Source: Candidatus Eremiobacterota bacterium (GTDB lineage: Bacteria > Vulcanimicrobiota > CADAWZ01 > Ess09-12). Taken from it: a stretch of DNA of 50,250 nt. The stretch is taken from the NCBI GenBank assembly GCA_031082125.1, contig JAVHLM010000012.1, positions 137,336 through 187,585 on the forward strand, written 5' to 3'. The notes beneath the pieces were generated by a model. It worked only from the letters and a program-made list of their open reading frames with translations. It ran no database searches and was not told the DNA's origin. Positions 6,027 to 14,970 of the stretch are shown here, piece by piece. Each line of letters opens with the position of its first letter. Position 1 is the first letter of the stretch. Both the position numbers and the translations under genes were made by a program.

Positions 6027-7844
6027 ATGAGAAAATGCCTCATCATTGTTTTCCTGTTTTTCGTAATGGCACTGCTGTGCTCCCCCTTTGTGTCAGCTCT
6101 TGAGGTTGATTCAAGGGGCAGAGAGACCATGGAGACCATGGAGGTCATGTCCGGCCATGTGAAGGGCGAGATAGTAATTGACCTGAAAGACGGCACCACC
6201 GATGCCGAAATAGCGCAGATGATGAAGCAATACGGCATCACAATGGACTACAACAGCCCCTTCTCTGCAAAATACAGGCTCATGGTGGCCGATGTAGAGG
6301 AGGAGCATATCGCCGGCCTCCTGGAGCAGCTTGTTCATGACAGCCGTGTGGAGTATGCCGAGCCTAATTACGTATACCAGATCCTCTCCTACCCCGATGA
6401 TCCCCTCTACAAATACCAGTGGCACATGGAAAAAATCAAGGTGCGGGGGGCATGGAAATATGCCACGGGCCAGAACGTCATTGTCGCCGTCATCGACACC
6501 GGGGTAGCCTACGAGGATTACAAAAACTTTCACCGCCTCGAGGACCTGGAGAAGACGCAGTTCGTTTCGCCCTATAACTTTGTGAGCAAAGATACCCATG
6601 CGAATGATGACCATGCCCATGGCTCCCACGTGGCGGGGACCATTGCCCAGACCACGAACAATAAGAAAGGCGTGGCAGGCATCGCCTACAACTGCAAAAT
6701 CATGCCCCTCAAGGTCCTCAGCTCCGCGGGTATGGGGAAGACCTCCGATATCGCCGATGCCATCAAATACGCAGCCGACCACGGCGCGAAAGTAATCAAT
6801 ATGAGCCTTGGCGGGAGGTTCTCAAGCTCCGTGATGCATGATGCCTGCAAGTACGCTTACCAGAAAGGCGTGACAATAGTCTGCGCGGCAGGCAACGAGC
6901 GCTCGGAAAGAATATCATATCCCGCGGCCTATGATGAGTGTATCGCGGTCTCGGCCATCCGCGACGATGACGAGCTCACTTTTTACACCAACAAGGGCAA
7001 GGATATAGAGATTGCAGCCCCCGGCGGCGATCTGAACGTCGATCAGAACGGTGACGGCTACAAGGATGGAGTCCTTCAGAACACGATCAAGGTGAGAAAC
7101 CCCGAGCAGGAGGACTACAGCCTCTTCCAGGGGACTTCCATGGCCTCGCCCCACGTGGCGGGCGCTGCAGCTCTCCTCGTCTCCCTTGGCTACAGCAACC
7201 CCGCGATGGTGAGAGCGATCCTGAAAAAGAGCGCCCGCTCAAAGGGGCTCGATCTCAAGAAAGGCTATGGGGCAGGTATTCTCGATGCCGAAAAGGCAGT
7301 CTACACGGCGGGCTTCCTTGACGGCCTTGCCAAGCTCGTATTCGGGCTTCTGGGAGCCCTTTTCCTCCTCTCATCGCTCAGAAGGTTCCCCAGGGCCCCT
7401 TACTCGGTCATATCACCCCACTACCTTGTGGGACTGATATTCGGGGCCTGCGGCCTTTTCTTTCTCCCGTCACTCGGGATTGAAGGGCTCCCGGCAAAGA
7501 ACCTCCTTCTCAGGGGGTTCCCGCAGTGGGACATAGTTCTCATGGGAGCCGAGCACCATGGGAACGTTCTTTTCTACAGCGCCCTTTTCCCCATAGCCCT
7601 CTCTTTTCTGTTCTTCCCGAACATCACCCTCCGCCGCATGGCGGCAGGATTTTCCACCGGCGTGGCAGGCCATCTTCTCTTCATGCTCCTCGCAAAGCCC
7701 GCCCCGATTCAATTCATCCCGAGCTTCCTTTTCATTGACAGGATCTGGCTTCTGGCGAATATAGCCCTTTGCCTTTACGCGGCATACCTTTTCATCAGGT
7801 TCATCCCGGAAAAGGCTCTGAAAGACCGTATTCCCGGCGAGTGA
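6027..7844 (+). CDS. Subtilisin-family (S8) serine protease with multi-pass membrane tail
   Basis: Exported subtilase. Residues 1-25 are a Sec signal peptide, and 40-120 look like the usual inhibitor-like propeptide (GEIVIDLKDGTT to EYAEPNYVY). The catalytic domain (about 130-425) has Asp157 in VIDTGV, His198 in HGSHVAG, the oxyanion Asn near 290 in AAGNE, and Ser371 in GTSMASPHVAG. An Asp/Gly calcium-type loop, DQNGDGYKDG, lies near 339. After the protease domain there are about five hydrophobic helices (about 432-450, 463-482, 512-530, 538-556 and 571-591). Such a tail is unusual, since most subtilases are soluble or have one anchor, and it probably holds the protease at the cytoplasmic membrane. 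The ribosome site GGGAGG is well placed. Substrates are unknown. Confidence 0.93.
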   Translation: MRKCLIIVFLFFVMALLCSPFVSALEVDSRGRETMETMEVMSGHVKGEIVIDLKDGTTDAEIAQMMKQYGITMDYNSPFSAKYRLMVADVEEEHIAGLLEQLVHDSRVEYAEPNYVYQILSYPDDPLYKYQWHMEKIKVRGAWKYATGQNVIVAVIDTGVAYEDYKNFHRLEDLEKTQFVSPYNFVSKDTHANDDHAHGSHVAGTIAQTTNNKKGVAGIAYNCKIMPLKVLSSAGMGKTSDIADAIKYAADHGAKVINMSLGGRFSSSVMHDACKYAYQKGVTIVCAAGNERSERISYPAAYDECIAVSAIRDDDELTFYTNKGKDIEIAAPGGDLNVDQNGDGYKDGVLQNTIKVRNPEQEDYSLFQGTSMASPHVAGAAALLVSLGYSNPAMVRAILKKSARSKGLDLKKGYGAGILDAEKAVYTAGFLDGLAKLVFGLLGALFLLSSLRRFPRAPYSVISPHYLVGLIFGACGLFFLPSLGIEGLPAKNLLLRGFPQWDIVLMGAEHHGNVLFYSALFPIALSFLFFPNITLRRMAAGFSTGVAGHLLFMLLAKPAPIQFIPSFLFIDRIWLLANIALCLYAAYLFIRFIPEKALKDRIPGE

Positions 7845-7869
7845 GCACTCAAGGAAAGAAGGAGACCAT

Positions 7870-8091
7870 ATGAAAACCATCAAGGGAAAAATTGAGAAAA
7901 GCGAACTGGAAGGCGGCATCTGGGTCCTTGTCACCGACAAGGGCGAGCAATACCAGCTCGACGGCGGTGACAGGGAGCTCTACATACAGGGAAGAAAAGT
8001 CTCGGTGACAGGCACGGAACAAAGGGATATGATGGGAATCGGCATGATGGGACCTCTCTTCAAAGTGAAAAAATACGAGATTCTCAGGTAA
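7870..8091 (+). CDS. Small beta-rich hypothetical protein
   Basis: 73 residues with a strong AGGAG ribosome site, 25 bases after the protease stop and probably co-transcribed with it. The alternating pattern (KTIKGKIEKS, GIWVLVTDKGEQYQL, RKVSVTGTEQ, FKVKKYEIL) suggests a small five-stranded barrel, like DUF5818-type or OB-like proteins in which a conserved G-x-W-x-L is followed by a turn. The resemblance is by pattern only. No signal peptide, so it should be cytoplasmic. Confidence 0.75.
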   Translation: MKTIKGKIEKSELEGGIWVLVTDKGEQYQLDGGDRELYIQGRKVSVTGTEQRDMMGIGMMGPLFKVKKYEILR

Positions 8092-8152
8092 TTTTGAAGG
8101 CATTCCCGCCTTCCCAGGAACGGGGTAAGACTATCTTTCGGGGTGAAACAGA

Positions 8153-8470
8153 GTGAAAACGAAAAGGAAATGCTACGTGGTTAATTGTCCACACGAGCCC
8201 CTGCAGCGTGTGGGAGTCAACATGCTGAAAGTGCTTGGCATACAGCCTGGGTCTGAGTCCTTTGAGAAACAGAAGCACCTTATTGCGGTGGAGATATGCA
8301 GGGATCACTTCCTGGAAAAGTTCCCTTCCTACCAGCTCTTCAAGAAGTCCTTCTTCCAGGGGATGATAATGATTTCAAAAACCCAGTACATTGCCATGGC
8401 GAAGGAGCTTTACGGAATGGCACCGGGAAAGATTGATGAAGGGGACTTCAAAGCCTCGCCGCGAAGCTGA
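8153..8470 (+). CDS. Hypothetical protein, GTG start
   Basis: 105 residues beginning at GTG (no ATG is available in frame), with GGGGTGA upstream. It has a Cys/His cluster near the N-terminus (CYVVNCPHEP) and a later C-R-D-H, which might bind a metal, then a mostly helical C-terminal half. I recognise no family. It lies 61 bases after the preceding small gene on the same strand. The next gene converges on it, and a small hairpin (CTCGT/ACGAG, 8479-8492) sits between their ends. Confidence 0.65.
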   Translation: MKTKRKCYVVNCPHEPLQRVGVNMLKVLGIQPGSESFEKQKHLIAVEICRDHFLEKFPSYQLFKKSFFQGMIMISKTQYIAMAKELYGMAPGKIDEGDFKASPRS

Positions 8471-8485
8471 TGATGGGCCTCGTTC

Positions 8486-8686
8486 TTACGAGAACCACTG
8501 GGTCACAAAGGATCTGAAGGAACTGTAAAGTTCAATGCCGGGCTCATGGCTTTTCTTGATGTCCCCCTGGGTCATGACGTCCAGAATATCAATAAAAAGA
8601 GGCTGAAGCTCAAGCGCTTTCACTCTCCCGCCCTGTGCCAGGCTCTCCCGGATCGCACCGCTTTCTCCCCCACCCTGCTTATTCAT
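8486..8686 (-). CDS. Small hypothetical protein
   Basis: 66 residues on the minus strand. The start is supported by GGGAGGG about seven bases upstream, much better than anything for the overlapping plus-strand frame at 8546-8839. The protein has a Gly-rich N-terminus, then a helix containing LQPLFIDILDVMTQGDI, and ends in aromatic residues. No known family. Its start region faces the BlaI-type operator region, and a single TACTACA half-site lies at 8723-8729, about 40 bases upstream of its start. Confidence 0.45.
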   Translation of the reverse strand: MNKQGGGESGAIRESLAQGGRVKALELQPLFIDILDVMTQGDIKKSHEPGIELYSSFRSFVTQWFS

Positions 8687-8835
8687 AGAATGACCCTCCC
8701 TTGTGCCCCCCTCTTCTTACAGTACTACATCACGCATCGGTGCTCTCCATCTAGGCATCAATTGTTACGAATTTGTAATATTAGTGAAAATCCTGTAAAA
8801 TTATTGTGTACAGAGATCTTTATTTTCAGGGGCTC

Positions 8836-8864
8836 TTGACATAATACTACGGTTGTAGTATTAT
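8836..8864 (+). promoter_or_regulatory. Promoter of the repressor-peptidase operon
   Basis: Consensus TTGACA (8836-8841), a 17-base spacer and TATTAT (8859-8864), followed by AGGAG and the repressor gene at 8912. The operator occupies the whole spacer and the -10. Confidence 0.8.
8841..8864. promoter_or_regulatory. BlaI/MecI-type operator
   Basis: Perfect ten-base inverted repeat: ATAATACTAC and GTAGTATTAT around GGTT. The TACTAC/GTAGTA core is the pattern bound by BlaI/MecI repressors, and it lies between the -35 and -10 of the gene for such a repressor. Negative autoregulation is the natural reading. Confidence 0.85.
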
Positions 8865-8911
8865 GGAGGAGAAGTCCAGTATGGGCTCAAGATGAGCACA
8901 GGAGTTTTCAG

Positions 8912-9307
8912 ATGAGCATCGAGTCAAGGTATTCCCACCTGGGGGAGCTGGAGCTGGAGATAATGGATGTGCTCTGGGATTTCGATTTTGCCACGGTGAA
9001 GGATATCCATGAGACACTGGTCAAAAAGCGCGACATCGCCTATACGACGGTAATGACCGTGATGACGAGGCTCGCAGAGAAAGGAATGCTGAAGCGGTCG
9101 CAATCCGGCCGCACTTATGTGTACAGGCCAAAATACTCCAGGACGCAGATAGCTCACACCTTTTTCGACAGGATCAAGGAGAAGATATTCAGGGGAAGAC
9201 CGGCAGAGCTTTTTTCCTACATCATCGCCAGCAGTTCCCTCACCTCGGACGATCTTCTCAGGATAAAGCTCCTCATCGAGGAGAAGGAGCGCCAGACCGA
9301 TGGATAG
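8912..9307 (+). CDS. BlaI/MecI/CopY-family winged-helix repressor
   Basis: 131 residues, typical of the family. The N-terminal winged helix reads LGELELEIMDVLW, then DIHETLVKKRDIAYTTVMTV for the recognition helix, then RLAEKGMLKRSQSGRTYVYRP for the wing. The C-terminal helices form the dimerisation part and include the region that partner peptidases cleave in BlaI and MecI. The ribosome site is AGGAG. The gene overlaps the downstream M56 peptidase by eight bases, the standard repressor-antirepressor arrangement. The operator in its own promoter implies autoregulation. The signal need not be a beta-lactam: many such pairs sit beside unrelated genes, and no beta-lactamase or penicillin-binding protein is nearby. 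Confidence 0.92.
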   Translation: MSIESRYSHLGELELEIMDVLWDFDFATVKDIHETLVKKRDIAYTTVMTVMTRLAEKGMLKRSQSGRTYVYRPKYSRTQIAHTFFDRIKEKIFRGRPAELFSYIIASSSLTSDDLLRIKLLIEEKERQTDG

Positions 9308-10400
9308 CATCGTCATATTCAAAGCCGCTCTCAACAGCTCGGTCAATTTCATCTTCTGCCTGCTTGTGGTGATGCTCTTCGTGAGGATTTTCAACATCAA
9401 GAGCCCGGCGCTGCGCTTTTCCCTCTTCCTCCTGCCCCTTATCAAGCTCTGGTTTGATATGGGGACGCGCTTCTCCTCGGGGCACGGGTTCCCTGGGCCA
9501 TTCCCGCTCAAGGCGGGCGGCGTGTTTGACCTCTGCCTTTCAGCAGGGCTCGGATCTTCGGGTCTCTCGCTCTGGTCCCTCATATGCTCCTGCATCATCT
9601 CGCAGCATACTTATTCCATCGGTGACCTCATACTATGCGCGACAGGCCACGGGCTTTCCCAGACGCTTGCGGCCCTGTGGCTGTCTGCGGCGGCTTTGCT
9701 CATCCTTTACAGGGTCCTGGGCTATCTCTTCTATACCAGAAAGCTCTTCGCATCGGCTTACGAGGATGAGAGGCTCAAGCCCCTGGCAGATGCTCTCAAG
9801 AGGCCGCTGTACCTGTCGCCTCTTGCCAAAACCCCCATGGTGGCCGGGATGGTAAATCCCGCCATACTACTCCCGGTCAGGCTCCCGGAGACCCTCGAGG
9901 AAAAGGAGCTTGAAATGGTCCTGGACCATGAAATCAGCCACATCAGGAGAATGGACAACGTGCTCAACTTCCTGCTTGGCATGACAGGCGATATATTCTT
10001 CTTCCTCCCTCCAGTAGCTTTTCTCATAAGCAAAATCAACGAAGAGAAGGAAAAGATCTGCGATCTGATGGCCGCAGGAGACCACGGGGAAAAAGCTCTT
10101 GACCTCTGTAAGACCCTGGTGAAGCTGGCGGCGTCCAGCCTCAGGGAAGGCCCCTCCCTCATCACTCATGCCTGCGGGTTTGCCCTTTTTCCCCGCAAAG
10201 CCGAGGAGGGCCTGATGGGCCGGGTCACGTACCTGCTCTCCTGCAAGCCCGGGAAAAAGGGAATATTTCAGCAGAGATGGGCATATATACTGGTGACGCT
10301 CGCGCTCCTCAAACTGCTTATCGGTGTCTCATTCTTCACCTCGGAGGGTGCCGCGAGGATCTGCACCGAGGTGGCCATGAGGATAGTGGTAAGTGCATAA
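9300..10400 (+). CDS. M56-family membrane metallopeptidase (BlaR1/MecR1-type) without sensor domain
   Basis: 366-residue integral membrane protein. Hydrophobic helices are near 14-32, 38-54, 118-142, 222-246 and 327-348, with a further hydrophobic stretch near 75-105. The zinc site is HEISH (210-214) in LDHEISHIRRMDN, with a later E-x-x-x-CD segment as in BlaR1. In BlaR1/MecR1 this peptidase inactivates the repressor after signal binding. Here the protein ends soon after the last helix, so the roughly 250-residue penicillin-binding sensor of BlaR1 is missing; the signal must come through the membrane part or another protein. It is translationally coupled to the repressor and followed after 39 bases by the S41 protease gene. 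Confidence 0.88.
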   Translation: MDSIVIFKAALNSSVNFIFCLLVVMLFVRIFNIKSPALRFSLFLLPLIKLWFDMGTRFSSGHGFPGPFPLKAGGVFDLCLSAGLGSSGLSLWSLICSCIISQHTYSIGDLILCATGHGLSQTLAALWLSAAALLILYRVLGYLFYTRKLFASAYEDERLKPLADALKRPLYLSPLAKTPMVAGMVNPAILLPVRLPETLEEKELEMVLDHEISHIRRMDNVLNFLLGMTGDIFFFLPPVAFLISKINEEKEKICDLMAAGDHGEKALDLCKTLVKLAASSLREGPSLITHACGFALFPRKAEEGLMGRVTYLLSCKPGKKGIFQQRWAYILVTLALLKLLIGVSFFTSEGAARICTEVAMRIVVSA

Positions 10401-10439
10401 CGGGGTGCCTGATCAGATTCGTTCCACAGGAGGTACGCT

Positions 10440-11948
10440 ATGAAATCAATGAAGCTCCGTAACCTTATCCTCCCGCTCATTGCGGCAATGATCCTCATTC
10501 TGTTCCTGCCCCTTACCCTGAGGGCCCATACTGCCCCCCCGGCAGCCCCCGGAAAAAGCCTTTCGGTCGATCCCAAGACACCCGGCACTCCGGCGCCTGT
10601 AGAGAAAGATGACAAGGCAAAGAACAGGAACTTCCCCAATTACAAGAAGTACCTGGACAGTTCGGAGGAGCTGGGATTCTCCCCCAATCCCAGGCTCTTT
10701 GGAGCGATCCACAGCCTCCTGAACACCCAGTTTTATGGAAAGGTAACCGAGGAGAAGCTCACAGACGGCGCAAAGCAGGAAGTGGAGCGCCTCTTCAAGG
10801 AGGCGCAGGCCGAGGCCCCTCCCTTCAAGGATAAGAGCTTCTCCTCGCCTGAGGATTTCCTGAACGCCGCCGTGGCCCAGGCAAACAGCAAGGTCAGCAA
10901 GGACCTCATCCTCTACTCGGCGCTCTGTGGCCTGCTGAAAGGCACCGATGACCCTTATACGGTCTATCTCACCCCGAAGGAATACGGCCAGCTCATGGAG
11001 CAGATGCAGTCAGCCTCCTTCGGCGGCATCGGCACGTACATCGAGGTCGACAAGGATAACGACAACTGGCTCACCGTGATAGAGCCCATGGAGGGAACGC
11101 CGGCCTGGAACGCGGGGATCAAGACAGGCGACGTGATCTCCGAGATTGACGGGAAGTCCACGAAAGGCCTGTCCATTGATTTAGCGGTGACCAGGCTCCG
11201 CGGGCCCAAAGGAACGCCTGTGACGCTCACCATCATGAGAAAGGGAACGAAGGGCACCCTCAAGTTCACCCTTCTCAGGGAAAAGATACAGGTGAAATCG
11301 GTGACTTACAAGATTCTCAATAACACTTACGGCTATGTGAAGCTCAGGAACTTCGGGGAGGAGACGAGCCACGAGCTGGAAGCGGCCCTCAGGGAGATGG
11401 AAGGAAAGGGCATCAAGGGAGTGGTGATGGATCTCCGCAATAACGGCGGGGGTTACATCAATGCCGCCGTATCAATATCGGGCATATTCCTGGGCAAGGG
11501 CGAGTCCATCGTCACCGTGAAGGACAAGATGGGCAACTCGAAGAGCCACAACTCCAAGGGCGACTATAAGTTGAGCCTCCCCCTCGCCGTGCTGGTGAAC
11601 AAATACTCGGCGAGCGCCTCGGAGATAACTGCCGGTGCCATAAAGGACTACAAGAGAGGCGCCCTTGTGGGCACCAAGACCTTCGGCAAGGGCTCGGTGC
11701 AGCAGGTCATGCCCTTCCCCGACGGCTCGGCCCTCAAGGTCACCGTGTCCCATTACTACACACCCAATGGGAGCGATATAGACAAGAACGGCCTGGAGCC
11801 CGACTACAAGGTGGAGATGGAGCCAAAAGACGTAGGCAAGGACAAGGACCCCCAGCTTGACACAGCCCTCCAGATCCTGAAAGGGATCACTCCCGAAAAG
11901 GGGAGCACGACCACTCAGATCGAGGAGGAGCGGAAAAGCCCGAGGTAG
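10440..11948 (+). CDS. ctpA: Carboxy-terminal processing protease (S41 family)
   Basis: Exported serine protease of the Ctp/Prc type, which trims or degrades envelope proteins from their C-termini. Residues 1-30 are a signal or anchor sequence. A helical N-terminal region follows, then a PDZ domain (about 190-280, with FGGIGTYIE and AGIKTGDVISEIDG), then the protease core. The catalytic Ser392 lies in YSASASEITAGA and Lys417 in TFGKG, 25 residues apart as in the family. The ribosome site AGGAGG is ideal. Its place behind the repressor and M56 peptidase suggests it is an output of that switch (inference). The 502-residue length fits; the C-terminal tail is charged and probably disordered. Confidence 0.95.
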   Translation: MKSMKLRNLILPLIAAMILILFLPLTLRAHTAPPAAPGKSLSVDPKTPGTPAPVEKDDKAKNRNFPNYKKYLDSSEELGFSPNPRLFGAIHSLLNTQFYGKVTEEKLTDGAKQEVERLFKEAQAEAPPFKDKSFSSPEDFLNAAVAQANSKVSKDLILYSALCGLLKGTDDPYTVYLTPKEYGQLMEQMQSASFGGIGTYIEVDKDNDNWLTVIEPMEGTPAWNAGIKTGDVISEIDGKSTKGLSIDLAVTRLRGPKGTPVTLTIMRKGTKGTLKFTLLREKIQVKSVTYKILNNTYGYVKLRNFGEETSHELEAALREMEGKGIKGVVMDLRNNGGGYINAAVSISGIFLGKGESIVTVKDKMGNSKSHNSKGDYKLSLPLAVLVNKYSASASEITAGAIKDYKRGALVGTKTFGKGSVQQVMPFPDGSALKVTVSHYYTPNGSDIDKNGLEPDYKVEMEPKDVGKDKDPQLDTALQILKGITPEKGSTTTQIEEERKSPR

Positions 11949-12005
11949 AGAGAAGAGTGGCCGATTGGAGAGAAGCGGACCAGGTTCCGAGAAGGAGCAC
12001 GGCGA

Positions 12006-13265
12006 CTGTATATTGATAAAGGCCTCAGACGGGCCACCCTGCCTGTCGTTTTCAGGCGCACCGCCTGCAACAGGTACTCGCTCCCTGTACTCATAGGGGC
12101 CCTGGAGAAGCACCTCGCCGGTGCCAATGTCTATCTCCTTGATGATCATCTCCACCTGAAAGACTTCGCCCGCCATTTCCCGTTGACCATTCTATGCTAT
12201 TCCTTTATGACCACCCAGCTCGGCACCGTCCTCAGGGAGGTCTCCTTCATCAGGGAGCACTATGGCAGCAGGGTGTTGCTCCTTGGGGGGGGACCCCATC
12301 CCACTGCCGACCCGGAGGGAACTCTCAAGGCTGGCTTTGACGCCGTCTTCACAGGGGAGGCGGAGAGAATATTTCCCGAGGCAGTGGAGCGCGTGATAAA
12401 AGAAGGCCCCGGGGCGGTGCAGGGTCAGTCTTTTAACGATACCGACATTCCAAGGCTCTCTATCGACGACTATTTCCCCATATCGGAGACACTGGGCCTT
12501 TACGGGCCCATGGAAATCTCGAGGGGATGCCTTCACCACTGCGCCTTCTGCCAGACCAGGCGCATCTTCGCCCCGCCCCTGAGGCACCGCTCGGTGGAGT
12601 CAGTGGTGGCGGGCATCAGCAAGGCGATGAAGGGGGGCCAGAAGAGAACCTTTTTCATCTCCCCCAATGCGCTCTCCTATGGCTCTGAAGGGAAGGGCAC
12701 GGTAAACCTGGCGGCCCTTGGCGGCCTTCTCTCGGCCATCAAGGCCACAGGAACAAAGTATATTGACCTTGCCTACTTCCCCTCGGAGGTCCGGCCTGAA
12801 TATGTTTCAGAAGAGGCCCTGGCCCTCATAAAGAAATACTGCACCAACAGGAAGATCGCCGTAGGCATACAGACGGGGAGCGACTCGCTTCTCAGGAGGC
12901 TGCGGAGGGGCCACACGGTGGCCCAGGCCGTCGAAACGGTAGCCCTCATCAGATCCATGGGGCTCATGGCCCACTGCGACTTTATCTTCGGCTTCCCAGG
13001 CGAGACAGGCGACGATGTGAAAGCGAGCCTGGAGCTGATGGAGCTCATCACGAAAAAATTCGGGGCGCGGATCCACTTCCATTACTTCCTCCCTCTCCCC
13101 GGCACGCCGCTGTGGGGCGGGAAGCCTGAGCCGCTCGATGACAGGACGCGCTCAGCCCTGGCGAGGTTCGAGGAGGACGGCCGCCTTGACGGCTGGTGGA
13201 AAGAGCAGGAAAAGCTCTCAATGGAGATTCAGGAGTGGAAAGCCAGGGGGTATATTACCGTTTAG
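12006..13265 (+). CDS. Radical SAM protein with B12-binding-type N-terminal domain (start uncertain)
   Basis: The radical SAM core has CLHHCAFC (CxxxCxxC), which holds the 4Fe-4S cluster that cleaves S-adenosylmethionine. The N-terminal part resembles cobalamin-binding domains (VLLLGGGPHPTADPEG), and the whole recalls the MJ_1487-type B12/radical SAM family. The only ATG/GTG/TTG start near the front is TTG at 12183, but the frame is open back to the S41 stop at 11948. The upstream codons encode a family-like N-terminus (LPVVFRRTACNRYSLPVLIG). I placed the start at CTG 12006, where AAGGAG lies eight to nine bases upstream; ATT at 12012 is another option. The reaction is unknown. The stop overlaps that of the convergent gene. 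Confidence 0.8.
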   Translation: MYIDKGLRRATLPVVFRRTACNRYSLPVLIGALEKHLAGANVYLLDDHLHLKDFARHFPLTILCYSFMTTQLGTVLREVSFIREHYGSRVLLLGGGPHPTADPEGTLKAGFDAVFTGEAERIFPEAVERVIKEGPGAVQGQSFNDTDIPRLSIDDYFPISETLGLYGPMEISRGCLHHCAFCQTRRIFAPPLRHRSVESVVAGISKAMKGGQKRTFFISPNALSYGSEGKGTVNLAALGGLLSAIKATGTKYIDLAYFPSEVRPEYVSEEALALIKKYCTNRKIAVGIQTGSDSLLRRLRRGHTVAQAVETVALIRSMGLMAHCDFIFGFPGETGDDVKASLELMELITKKFGARIHFHYFLPLPGTPLWGGKPEPLDDRTRSALARFEEDGRLDGWWKEQEKLSMEIQEWKARGYITV

Positions 13266-14077
13266 CGGTGCATGGAGGTGATCCACACAATCCCCCCGAT
13301 GAGGCCCAGGAAAGAGAAGAGGAGCTGGTACCAGCCCAGGCCGAACATCAGGAAGGGGAGCACGAAGAATCCCACGCCGCAAAGGAAAAGCGCCACAAAG
13401 GTGGCAAGGGTGGGCTCGATGCGGTTCCGCCACATGATCACGAAGAGCAGGTAGCTGATGGTGACGGCTATCAGAAGGAAATATGCAATGTAGAGGGGGA
13501 TGTAGAGCCACCAGTTGCTGATGCTCATGCCCTTTTCCTTGTACCCCTCGACGAAGGAGACGACGGGAGAGATGTCCACCTGCCTCACGTAAAGGCTGGT
13601 TTTAGCGGTGGGCTCGAGCTTGATTTCAAAGTCGTTGTTGCCCGTGTGGCAGTATTTTCCTATATCGTACCCCAGGATGGTGTAAATGTCGAAATAGAGC
13701 TCCATTGTCGTGACAGGAGATCCGTTCACCGTGATGGAGTAGGTGGGATTCTTGGTGAGCTCGGCAAGCGTCGAGGTGCGGTGGTTTATCTGGAGGTAAA
13801 GCTGCTGGGGCATCCTGTCCAGCGTGAAGGTGCCCTTGAGAGTGCTTGAGCCCGGCTTGTCCATGAGCAGGTGGGAGAGCCCCCCCCCCTCGCGCTCGAC
13901 AGTGGCATTCTGGCAGCTCACGGCTATTGTTCCCATCGGGGAGCCCGAGGAAAAAGAGATGGTGAAGGACTCGAAATCCTTGGCCAGCGCCGCAGCCGAG
14001 AACAGCGCCAGCATCAGCACCAGGATCAAGATCCCGGCCCCTTTCCTGCCCCATTGAGAAACCAGTCCTATGCCCAA
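13262..14077 (-). CDS. Exported beta-domain protein with three C-terminal membrane helices
   Basis: 271 residues from a TTG start with AGGAG eight bases upstream. Residues about 12-33 are a signal sequence, followed by a beta-rich extracytoplasmic domain (about 34-180) and three membrane helices (about 192-215, 222-243 and 246-266). The domain contains a short N-G turn (ITVNGSPVTT) and a G-x-N-D-F-E-I-K-L-E strand, as in galactose-binding-like jelly rolls. The same layout and motifs occur in the upstream neighbour, so the two are probably ancient paralogues. It is last in the seven-gene minus-strand operon, 11 bases after that neighbour. Its stop (TAA) overlaps the TAG of the convergent radical SAM gene. 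Function unknown. Confidence 0.82.
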   Translation of the reverse strand: MGIGLVSQWGRKGAGILILVLMLALFSAAALAKDFESFTISFSSGSPMGTIAVSCQNATVEREGGGLSHLLMDKPGSSTLKGTFTLDRMPQQLYLQINHRTSTLAELTKNPTYSITVNGSPVTTMELYFDIYTILGYDIGKYCHTGNNDFEIKLEPTAKTSLYVRQVDISPVVSFVEGYKEKGMSISNWWLYIPLYIAYFLLIAVTISYLLFVIMWRNRIEPTLATFVALFLCGVGFFVLPFLMFGLGWYQLLFSFLGLIGGIVWITSMHR

Positions 14078-14088
14078 GCGCCACGCTC

Positions 14089-14970
14089 CTAAAAGTTAAA
14101 ATCTGTGCCCGAAGGCTTGTCCTCCTGCCGCGCCTCGCCTTCGATGGCCACGCTCTTCTGGAAGGCATCCTCGCCCTTCTTCGCGGAAAGCATAGAGATG
14201 AGGGCCAGGACCACGGTGCAGGCCAGGTATACCAGCGACCATTTCTGCATGCGGGGAATGACAAGCCAGCAGTAACCTGCCGCAAAGCCGGCAATCATGA
14301 TGCCGATGAGGGCGAAGGATGCCGAATAGGCATCCATGTTGCTGTAAAGAGTCCTGTTGAAGAAAAACCATATGAAGTAGAGGATCACCAGAATTCCCAG
14401 CACCAGGGCGGCGGTTTTGCCGTACTTGGGAATCAGATCGGGAAGGTTGCTCACATTTTTTGCCAGAGAGGGATTATCGGCGAATATGGTGCCCCTGATC
14501 CAGAGCTGGTCTCCCGATTCAAGCGTGATGGCGACGGTGTTCTCCCCTTTCCTGAGCTCCCGGGATATCTCGAAGCCCTGGGAGATGTAATGGTTGATCC
14601 TGTTTTTCATCGACGGGATGAACTCCCTGCCGTTGATGAATATGTTCATCTCGGCCTCCGAGGGGGAGCTCATCCAGTCATTGAGCATATAGTACTCGCC
14701 GGGTACCTCGTCGAGGGTGAAGCTGTAAGTGAGGGAGCTTGTTTTGGGCGACGTGAGCTTGAGGGTGTACTCGCCGTTTGACTCCTTCTCGAAGAGGGCC
14801 GCCTGGGGCTTGATGACAAGGGTTCCCTCGGGCCTGCCCTTGATGAAGAGGGAGTAGAAGAAATTCCTGGAAGAGGCCGGTCGCGACTCACTGGAGCACC
14901 CTGCCGCCGCCAGCAGAACAGCAAAGGCCAGAAGAATCAATGAAAAGGCATGGCATTTGCCAGAGGGCAT
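14089..14970 (-). CDS. Lipoprotein with beta-sandwich domain and three membrane helices
   Basis: 293 residues. The signal peptide ends in a lipobox (LLAAAGC), so Cys25 is probably lipidated. The extracytoplasmic domain (about 35-185) looks like a jelly-roll sugar-binding fold: N-D-W-x-S-S-P-S-E, MNIFINGREF, and ISRELRKGENTVAITLESG, a sequence usual in glycosidase beta-sandwich domains. Three membrane helices follow (about 186-206, 214-237 and 243-262), then a charged tail. Having both a lipid anchor and three helices is odd. The ribosome site is GGAG. The gene follows the PP2C phosphatase gene by 81 bases. A ligand-sensing role for the signalling operon is inference. Confidence 0.85.
   Translation of the reverse strand: MPSGKCHAFSLILLAFAVLLAAAGCSSESRPASSRNFFYSLFIKGRPEGTLVIKPQAALFEKESNGEYTLKLTSPKTSSLTYSFTLDEVPGEYYMLNDWMSSPSEAEMNIFINGREFIPSMKNRINHYISQGFEISRELRKGENTVAITLESGDQLWIRGTIFADNPSLAKNVSNLPDLIPKYGKTAALVLGILVILYFIWFFFNRTLYSNMDAYSASFALIGIMIAGFAAGYCWLVIPRMQKWSLVYLACTVVLALISMLSAKKGEDAFQKSVAIEGEARQEDKPSGTDFNF

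Follow-up and report, generated by a model that had tools for sequence, protein, structure and literature searches.

The 50,250-nt window analysed here (the whole stretch of DNA under study, from a Candidatus Eremiobacterota bacterium) carries a regulatory switch of the BlaI/M56 kind, in which a BlaI-type repressor gene and a gene for a BlaR1-type membrane metallopeptidase are followed, in the same direction, by genes for an exported S41 protease and a B12-binding radical SAM protein (Table 1). The promoter-like sequence in front of them consists of a -35 element TTGACA (8836-8841), a 17-nt spacer and a -10 element TATTAT (8859-8864), and the putative operator takes in the final two bases of the -35 element, the entire spacer and the -10 element. 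Its layout, TACTAC-N4-GTAGTA, is that of the staphylococcal BlaI operator. The earlier note on this DNA had named this perfect operator, the repressor, an M56 peptidase without a penicillin-binding sensor and the identities of the S41 and B12-type radical SAM genes, all of which were borne out by the repeat, the promoter and the profile matches given below.

Table 1. Features of the switch and of its surroundings, with positions in the window
Feature	Position	Strand	Evidence or remark
Promoter TTGACA-17-TATTAT	8836..8864	+	11/12 consensus bases; best promoter-like match in 7800-14200 (consensus scan)
Putative BlaI operator CATAATACTAC-GGTT-GTAGTATTATG	8840..8865	no strand	perfect 11+4+11 inverted repeat across the promoter
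BlaI/MecI-family repressor, 131 residues	8912..9307	+	PF03965, 1.8e-31
M56 (BlaR1-type) membrane metallopeptidase, 366 residues, sensor-less	9300..10400	+	PF05569, 85.6 bits
Exported PDZ/S41 C-terminal processing protease, 502 residues	10440..11948	+	PF03572; TIGR00225 1.2e-102
B12-binding/radical SAM protein	12009..13265	+	TIGR04013; probable CTG start 12009
S8 subtilase	6027..7844	+	41.7-48.8% identity to the gene preceding S41 in 4/4 genomes of the same order

A search of the window for TACTAC-N4-GTAGTA with at most two mismatches returned two matches, the site itself and its own frame shifted by 3 nt, against 0.11 expected. Inverted repeats with arms of at least 11 bases and a spacing of 4 occupy two positions in the window; of 60 Markov shuffles, one contained such a repeat. 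On the plus strand between 8865 and 13265 a consensus scan, the only method applied, found no further promoter-like site, and the same holds for the 39-nt gap between the M56 and S41 genes.

The repressor covers the whole Penicillinase_R profile (PF03965) with 109.3 bits against a curated cut-off of 22.6, and its gene is preceded by a ribosome site AGGAG at 8900-8904. Among solved structures the nearest by sequence is 2g9w, which we take to be Rv1846c, the BlaI of Mycobacterium tuberculosis, followed by MecI and BlaI. The genome scanned (G000; 7.43 Mb, 97.6% complete) contains one BlaI match and one M56 match, and the two genes overlap by 8 bases.

The sensor domain is absent from the M56 protein because the chain stops about 20 residues after its last hydrophobic segment. 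A profile of this protein and 13 relatives from the phylum matched residues 2-324 of the 602 of Staphylococcus aureus BlaR1 (8exp) with an E-value of 2.5e-24 and left the sensor unmatched. The catalytic part is complete: H210-E211-H214, D219, E251, D255 and R308 are present (motifs HExxH and ExxxD), and H210, H214, D219, E251, D255 and R308 correspond to His201, His205, Asp210, Glu242, Asp246 and Arg294 of BlaR1, the roles of which are described in the BlaR1 structure paper (PMC9834060). The same paper describes BlaR1 Tyr261 as nearly strictly conserved and as lying nearer to His201 in the ampicillin-bound state (PMC9834060). At this position the M56 protein has Leu269. Among the 30 alignable M56 proteins, namely those fitting an HExxH...ExxxD search with the non-fitting ones excluded, Leu, Val or Met occupies it in five of five short proteins, while 24 of 25 long ones have Tyr and one has Phe. 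The short sensor-less M56 proteins look like a subclass, since they differ from the longer ones at the Tyr261 position. A structure prediction for the M56 protein alone gave a mean predicted local distance difference test score (pLDDT) of 45 and was not used, and a search for related loci with the M56 protein as query gave no match.

Some long M56 proteins encoded beside BlaI in the phylum have other C-terminal domains. Five of the eight scanned carry C-terminal pentapeptide repeats and no penicillin-binding domain (loci L049, L051, L064, L056 and L040 in genomes G116, G008, G078, G088 and G097), and a sixth, at L014, has a TonB C-terminal domain in place of the penicillin-binding domain. The pentapeptide repeats are possibly a new type of sensor.

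The S41 protein exceeds the cut-off of TIGR00225 (343.4 against 218.6 bits) and has a signal-like N-terminus and the motifs SASASE and FGKG. Its gene follows that of M56 after the 39 nt mentioned above. For the radical SAM protein the match to TIGR04013 (379.5 bits, cut-off 251) starts near 12045, and downstream of the S41 stop (11949-12182) the frame stays open, its first ATG, GTG or TTG being at 12183, inside the B12 domain. Translation likely begins at CTG 12009, which has AAGGAG eight bases upstream. Read-through of the stop codon to give an S41-radical SAM fusion was rejected; the CTG start is preferred to it, though not proved, because in relatives the radical SAM protein has an ATG start of its own where S41 ends. 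The spacing of the genes suggests that S41 and radical SAM are co-transcribed with the switch.

Two findings go beyond the earlier note: a second copy of the operator on the promoter of an HtrA-type protease gene, and an S41-radical SAM pair without BlaI and M56 in the same order. The pattern TACTA-N6-TAGTA without mismatch occurs at just two sites in the whole genome, and a reversed control pattern at 20. The second site, the 16-base TACTATAATTGTAGTA (G000:C10:199352-199367), takes in the -10 element of a TTGTAA-17-TATAAT promoter, and its end lies 24 nt upstream of the ATG of a gene for a 380-residue exported trypsin-like/PDZ protease of HtrA type, located downstream of an RsfS gene. The predicted regulon thus comprises two exported PDZ proteases, one of S41 and one of HtrA type. 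Allowing one mismatch from TACTAY-N4-RTAGTA gave 12 sites; of the ten other than the operator and the HtrA site, a crude open reading frame (ORF) call placed eight within such frames, a ninth at a start codon and the tenth between two divergently oriented genes. This last site (G000:C6:182199-182214, L004), beside a gene that by eye is MoxR-type ATPase-like, is a possible third target. The genome has three more HtrA-like genes, and the one of them that was examined lacks the operator. In all, ten HtrA-like loci were examined, six of which fell outside the operator test since the active-site motif missed them.

The earlier note had further supposed that the signal is something other than a beta-lactam, perhaps a product of the S41 protease. 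The former is in keeping with the result for class A beta-lactamases: three genes were identified (from four Pfam rows, two of which are halves of one gene), and none has a site with up to three mismatches within 1.5 kb; classes B, C and D and penicillin-binding proteins were not searched. The notion of an S41 product found no support.

Operators of this type recur before blaI elsewhere in the phylum. The core ACTA-N6-TAGT was present within 150 bases before the blaI match at 12 of 28 loci, compared with 2 of 507 equally long control stretches from these loci; the loci, the best-matching 29 less one that was N-masked, are not mutually independent. In two genomes from another family of the phylum, G026 and G032, an operator TACTAT-N4-ATAGTA stands some 37 bases upstream of the blaI match, and in G032 it sits between TTGACA and a -10-like TATGAT. 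In both genomes, whose M56 is likewise sensor-less, an operator-like site also stands before a gene for a small secreted protein, at L155:1501-1516 and in L159 (G032:C69:6350, G026:C177:28038); the two proteins belong to the same family (31% identity, E-value 4e-12). This secreted protein is a probable BlaI target, so sensor-less pairs with exported targets would appear to recur.

Four further genomes from this order (G007, G011, G015 and G018, the last 69% complete) were scanned and gave neither a BlaI nor an M56 match. In all four, S8, S41 and radical SAM genes are consecutive, with identities to the window genes of 42-49% for S8, 47-48% for S41 and 46-48% for radical SAM (38% in G018, where the contig end truncates the gene and the value refers to a part of it). 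The S8-S41 distance is 234, 234, 244 and 330 nt in these genomes, the last with a 96-codon ORF, compared with 2595 nt in the window, where the switch lies inside it. Either the BlaI/M56 pair entered between S8 and S41 in the present genome, or the four relatives lost it. As the S41-radical SAM pair stands without BlaI/M56 in the same order, it is not intrinsically tied to the switch. The proposal of the earlier note that S41 and radical SAM are governed by the switch promoter stands in part: the genes are co-directional and no promoter-like site separates them from the switch, but the pair also exists without it. In a wider radical SAM alignment search, S41 or S8 homologues were found at just three of 42 loci, all from f2 genomes, and no S41, S8, BlaI or M56 homologue was seen at the other 39, many of these loci being short.

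Further features were noted around these genes. In the three f2 genomes (L097-L099), the S8-S41-radical SAM cluster has behind it a gene for a large ATPase, ClpC-like by eye; the window has none at this place. Between S8 and the switch lies a small ORF of 105 residues (8153-8535) without a Pfam or NCBIfam match, the frame of which may, by eye, shift near its 3' end. The gene after radical SAM (13262-14077) runs in the opposite direction and belongs to two adjacent genes on the minus strand (13262-14970) for exported or membrane proteins of 271 and 293 residues, again without a Pfam or NCBIfam match.

Taken together, we consider it reasonably probable, from the sequence evidence, that these genes form a sensor-less BlaI/M56 switch of the M. 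tuberculosis kind that controls envelope proteolysis, with the operon and the HtrA gene repressed by BlaI and relieved by M56. A BlaI dimer bound to the operator over the -35 and -10 elements would repress the operon of blaI, M56, S41 and radical SAM, and the near-perfect operator on the -10 element of the HtrA-type gene would place this protease under the same BlaI. The M56 protein, having no extracellular sensor, would be held inactive and its active site freed once its transmembrane part, or some partner, perceives a membrane or envelope condition. It would then cut BlaI and open both promoters, and the output would be more envelope proteolysis of the CtpA/Prc and HtrA types.

Several observations weigh against this proposal. 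The M56 protein is poorly conserved (16-26% identity to relatives), and radical SAM is without a standard start and follows S41 after a gap of 60 nt. The HtrA target depends on a single 16-base site from a single genome that lacks a close relative in which conservation could be seen; the two nearest f2 HtrA genes have no operator, as expected without BlaI, and give no positive test. The search for beta-lactamases was confined to class A. Finally, the P1' residue of the predicted cleavage site in BlaI is Ile, according to an alignment with MecI that is uncertain by one residue, rather than Phe, which the BlaR1 structure paper gives as almost invariant (PMC9834060); BlaI relatives in the phylum mostly have Leu, Ile or Val. 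The cut may occur at a shifted or relaxed motif, because the aligned position is Ile here and bulky aliphatic in relatives.

The same genes could instead answer to beta-lactams or to the cell wall, with wall damage reported indirectly to M56 or BlaI, for example through a peptidoglycan dipeptide that binds BlaI, as proposed for Bacillus licheniformis, or through a kinase, and the proteases remodelling wall hydrolases. C-terminal processing proteases are known to act on wall hydrolases. A muropeptide can release BlaI (PMC3305447), and for M. tuberculosis PknB has been suggested to stand in for the sensor (PMC9834060). Yet none of the three class A beta-lactamase genes identified has an operator nearby, the M56 protein has no penicillin-binding domain and the second strong site lies on an HtrA-type gene and not on a wall gene, and we regard this explanation as rather unlikely. 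It is also conceivable that BlaI acts on blaI and M56 alone, with a separate, unnoticed promoter for S41 and radical SAM and the HtrA site being a coincidence. In the four relatives from the order, S41 and radical SAM occur side by side without BlaI/M56 and must there depend on another promoter, and PMC8457756 reports small, autoregulated BlaI regulons of one to three operons in Clostridium thermocellum. Autoregulation alone nevertheless appears quite unlikely, given that the gap between M56 and S41 holds no promoter-like site and that the sole other TACTA-N6-TAGTA of the genome falls exactly on the promoter of a PDZ protease. A metal-responsive repressor of CopY type would fit the best NCBIfam match of the BlaI protein, TIGR02698 (CopY_TcrY), but the 80.5 bits obtained fall short of the cut-off (121.95), the protein is entirely free of cysteine, and so of the metal-binding cysteines of CopY, and an M56 partner is present; this candidate was rejected as extremely improbable.

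Compared with known systems, the proposed protease switch shares with BlaI-BlaR1 and MecI-MecR1 of S. aureus and B. licheniformis the fold family of the repressor and an M56 partner with HExxH and ExxxD. It differs from them in lacking the penicillin-binding sensor domain, in having Leu in place of Tyr261 and no Phe at the MecI-aligned cleavage position, and in a predicted regulon without a beta-lactamase gene. The sigma-E, Cpx and CssRS envelope stress systems raise HtrA/DegP-type proteases. The predicted output here is likewise exported PDZ proteases, whereas a cut repressor is proposed and not a sigma factor or a two-component pair. The closest likeness is to Rv1846c and the BlaR1 homologue of M. 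tuberculosis, where the repressor belongs to the BlaI family, with 2g9w as the nearest solved relative, and where the M56 partner also has no sensor domain and its mode of detection is called unclear in the BlaR1 structure paper (PMC9834060). The M. tuberculosis targets beyond beta-lactamase include atpH, sigC, ftsQ and Rv1303 (PMC8265638, PMC12565901); here, by contrast, just two strong sites predict an S41 and an HtrA-type protease as targets, with no evidence of a beta-lactam link. A literature search of partial coverage yielded no paper recognised as describing a BlaI/M56 pair that controls HtrA- or S41-type proteases.

The kind of system is thus already known, and its wiring to proteases is the new part. 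With one BlaI, one M56, two strong sites and envelope proteolysis as the predicted output, a definite guess at the class of signal can be made: the absence of a penicillin sensor, one protease downstream and a second apparently controlled elsewhere suggest that the switch guards the envelope rather than answering antibiotics. More tentatively, and with some doubt, sensor-less BlaI/M56 pairs might represent a third kind of envelope-protein stress response next to those based on sigma factors and on two-component systems, in which M56 itself feels disorder of the envelope or membrane, cuts the repressor and raises a matched pair of CtpA/Prc and HtrA PDZ proteases, and in which the short M56 proteins that have lost Tyr261 would be a separately regulated subclass. 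For the phylum, the Tyr261 position provides a marker residue that separates short from long M56 proteins.

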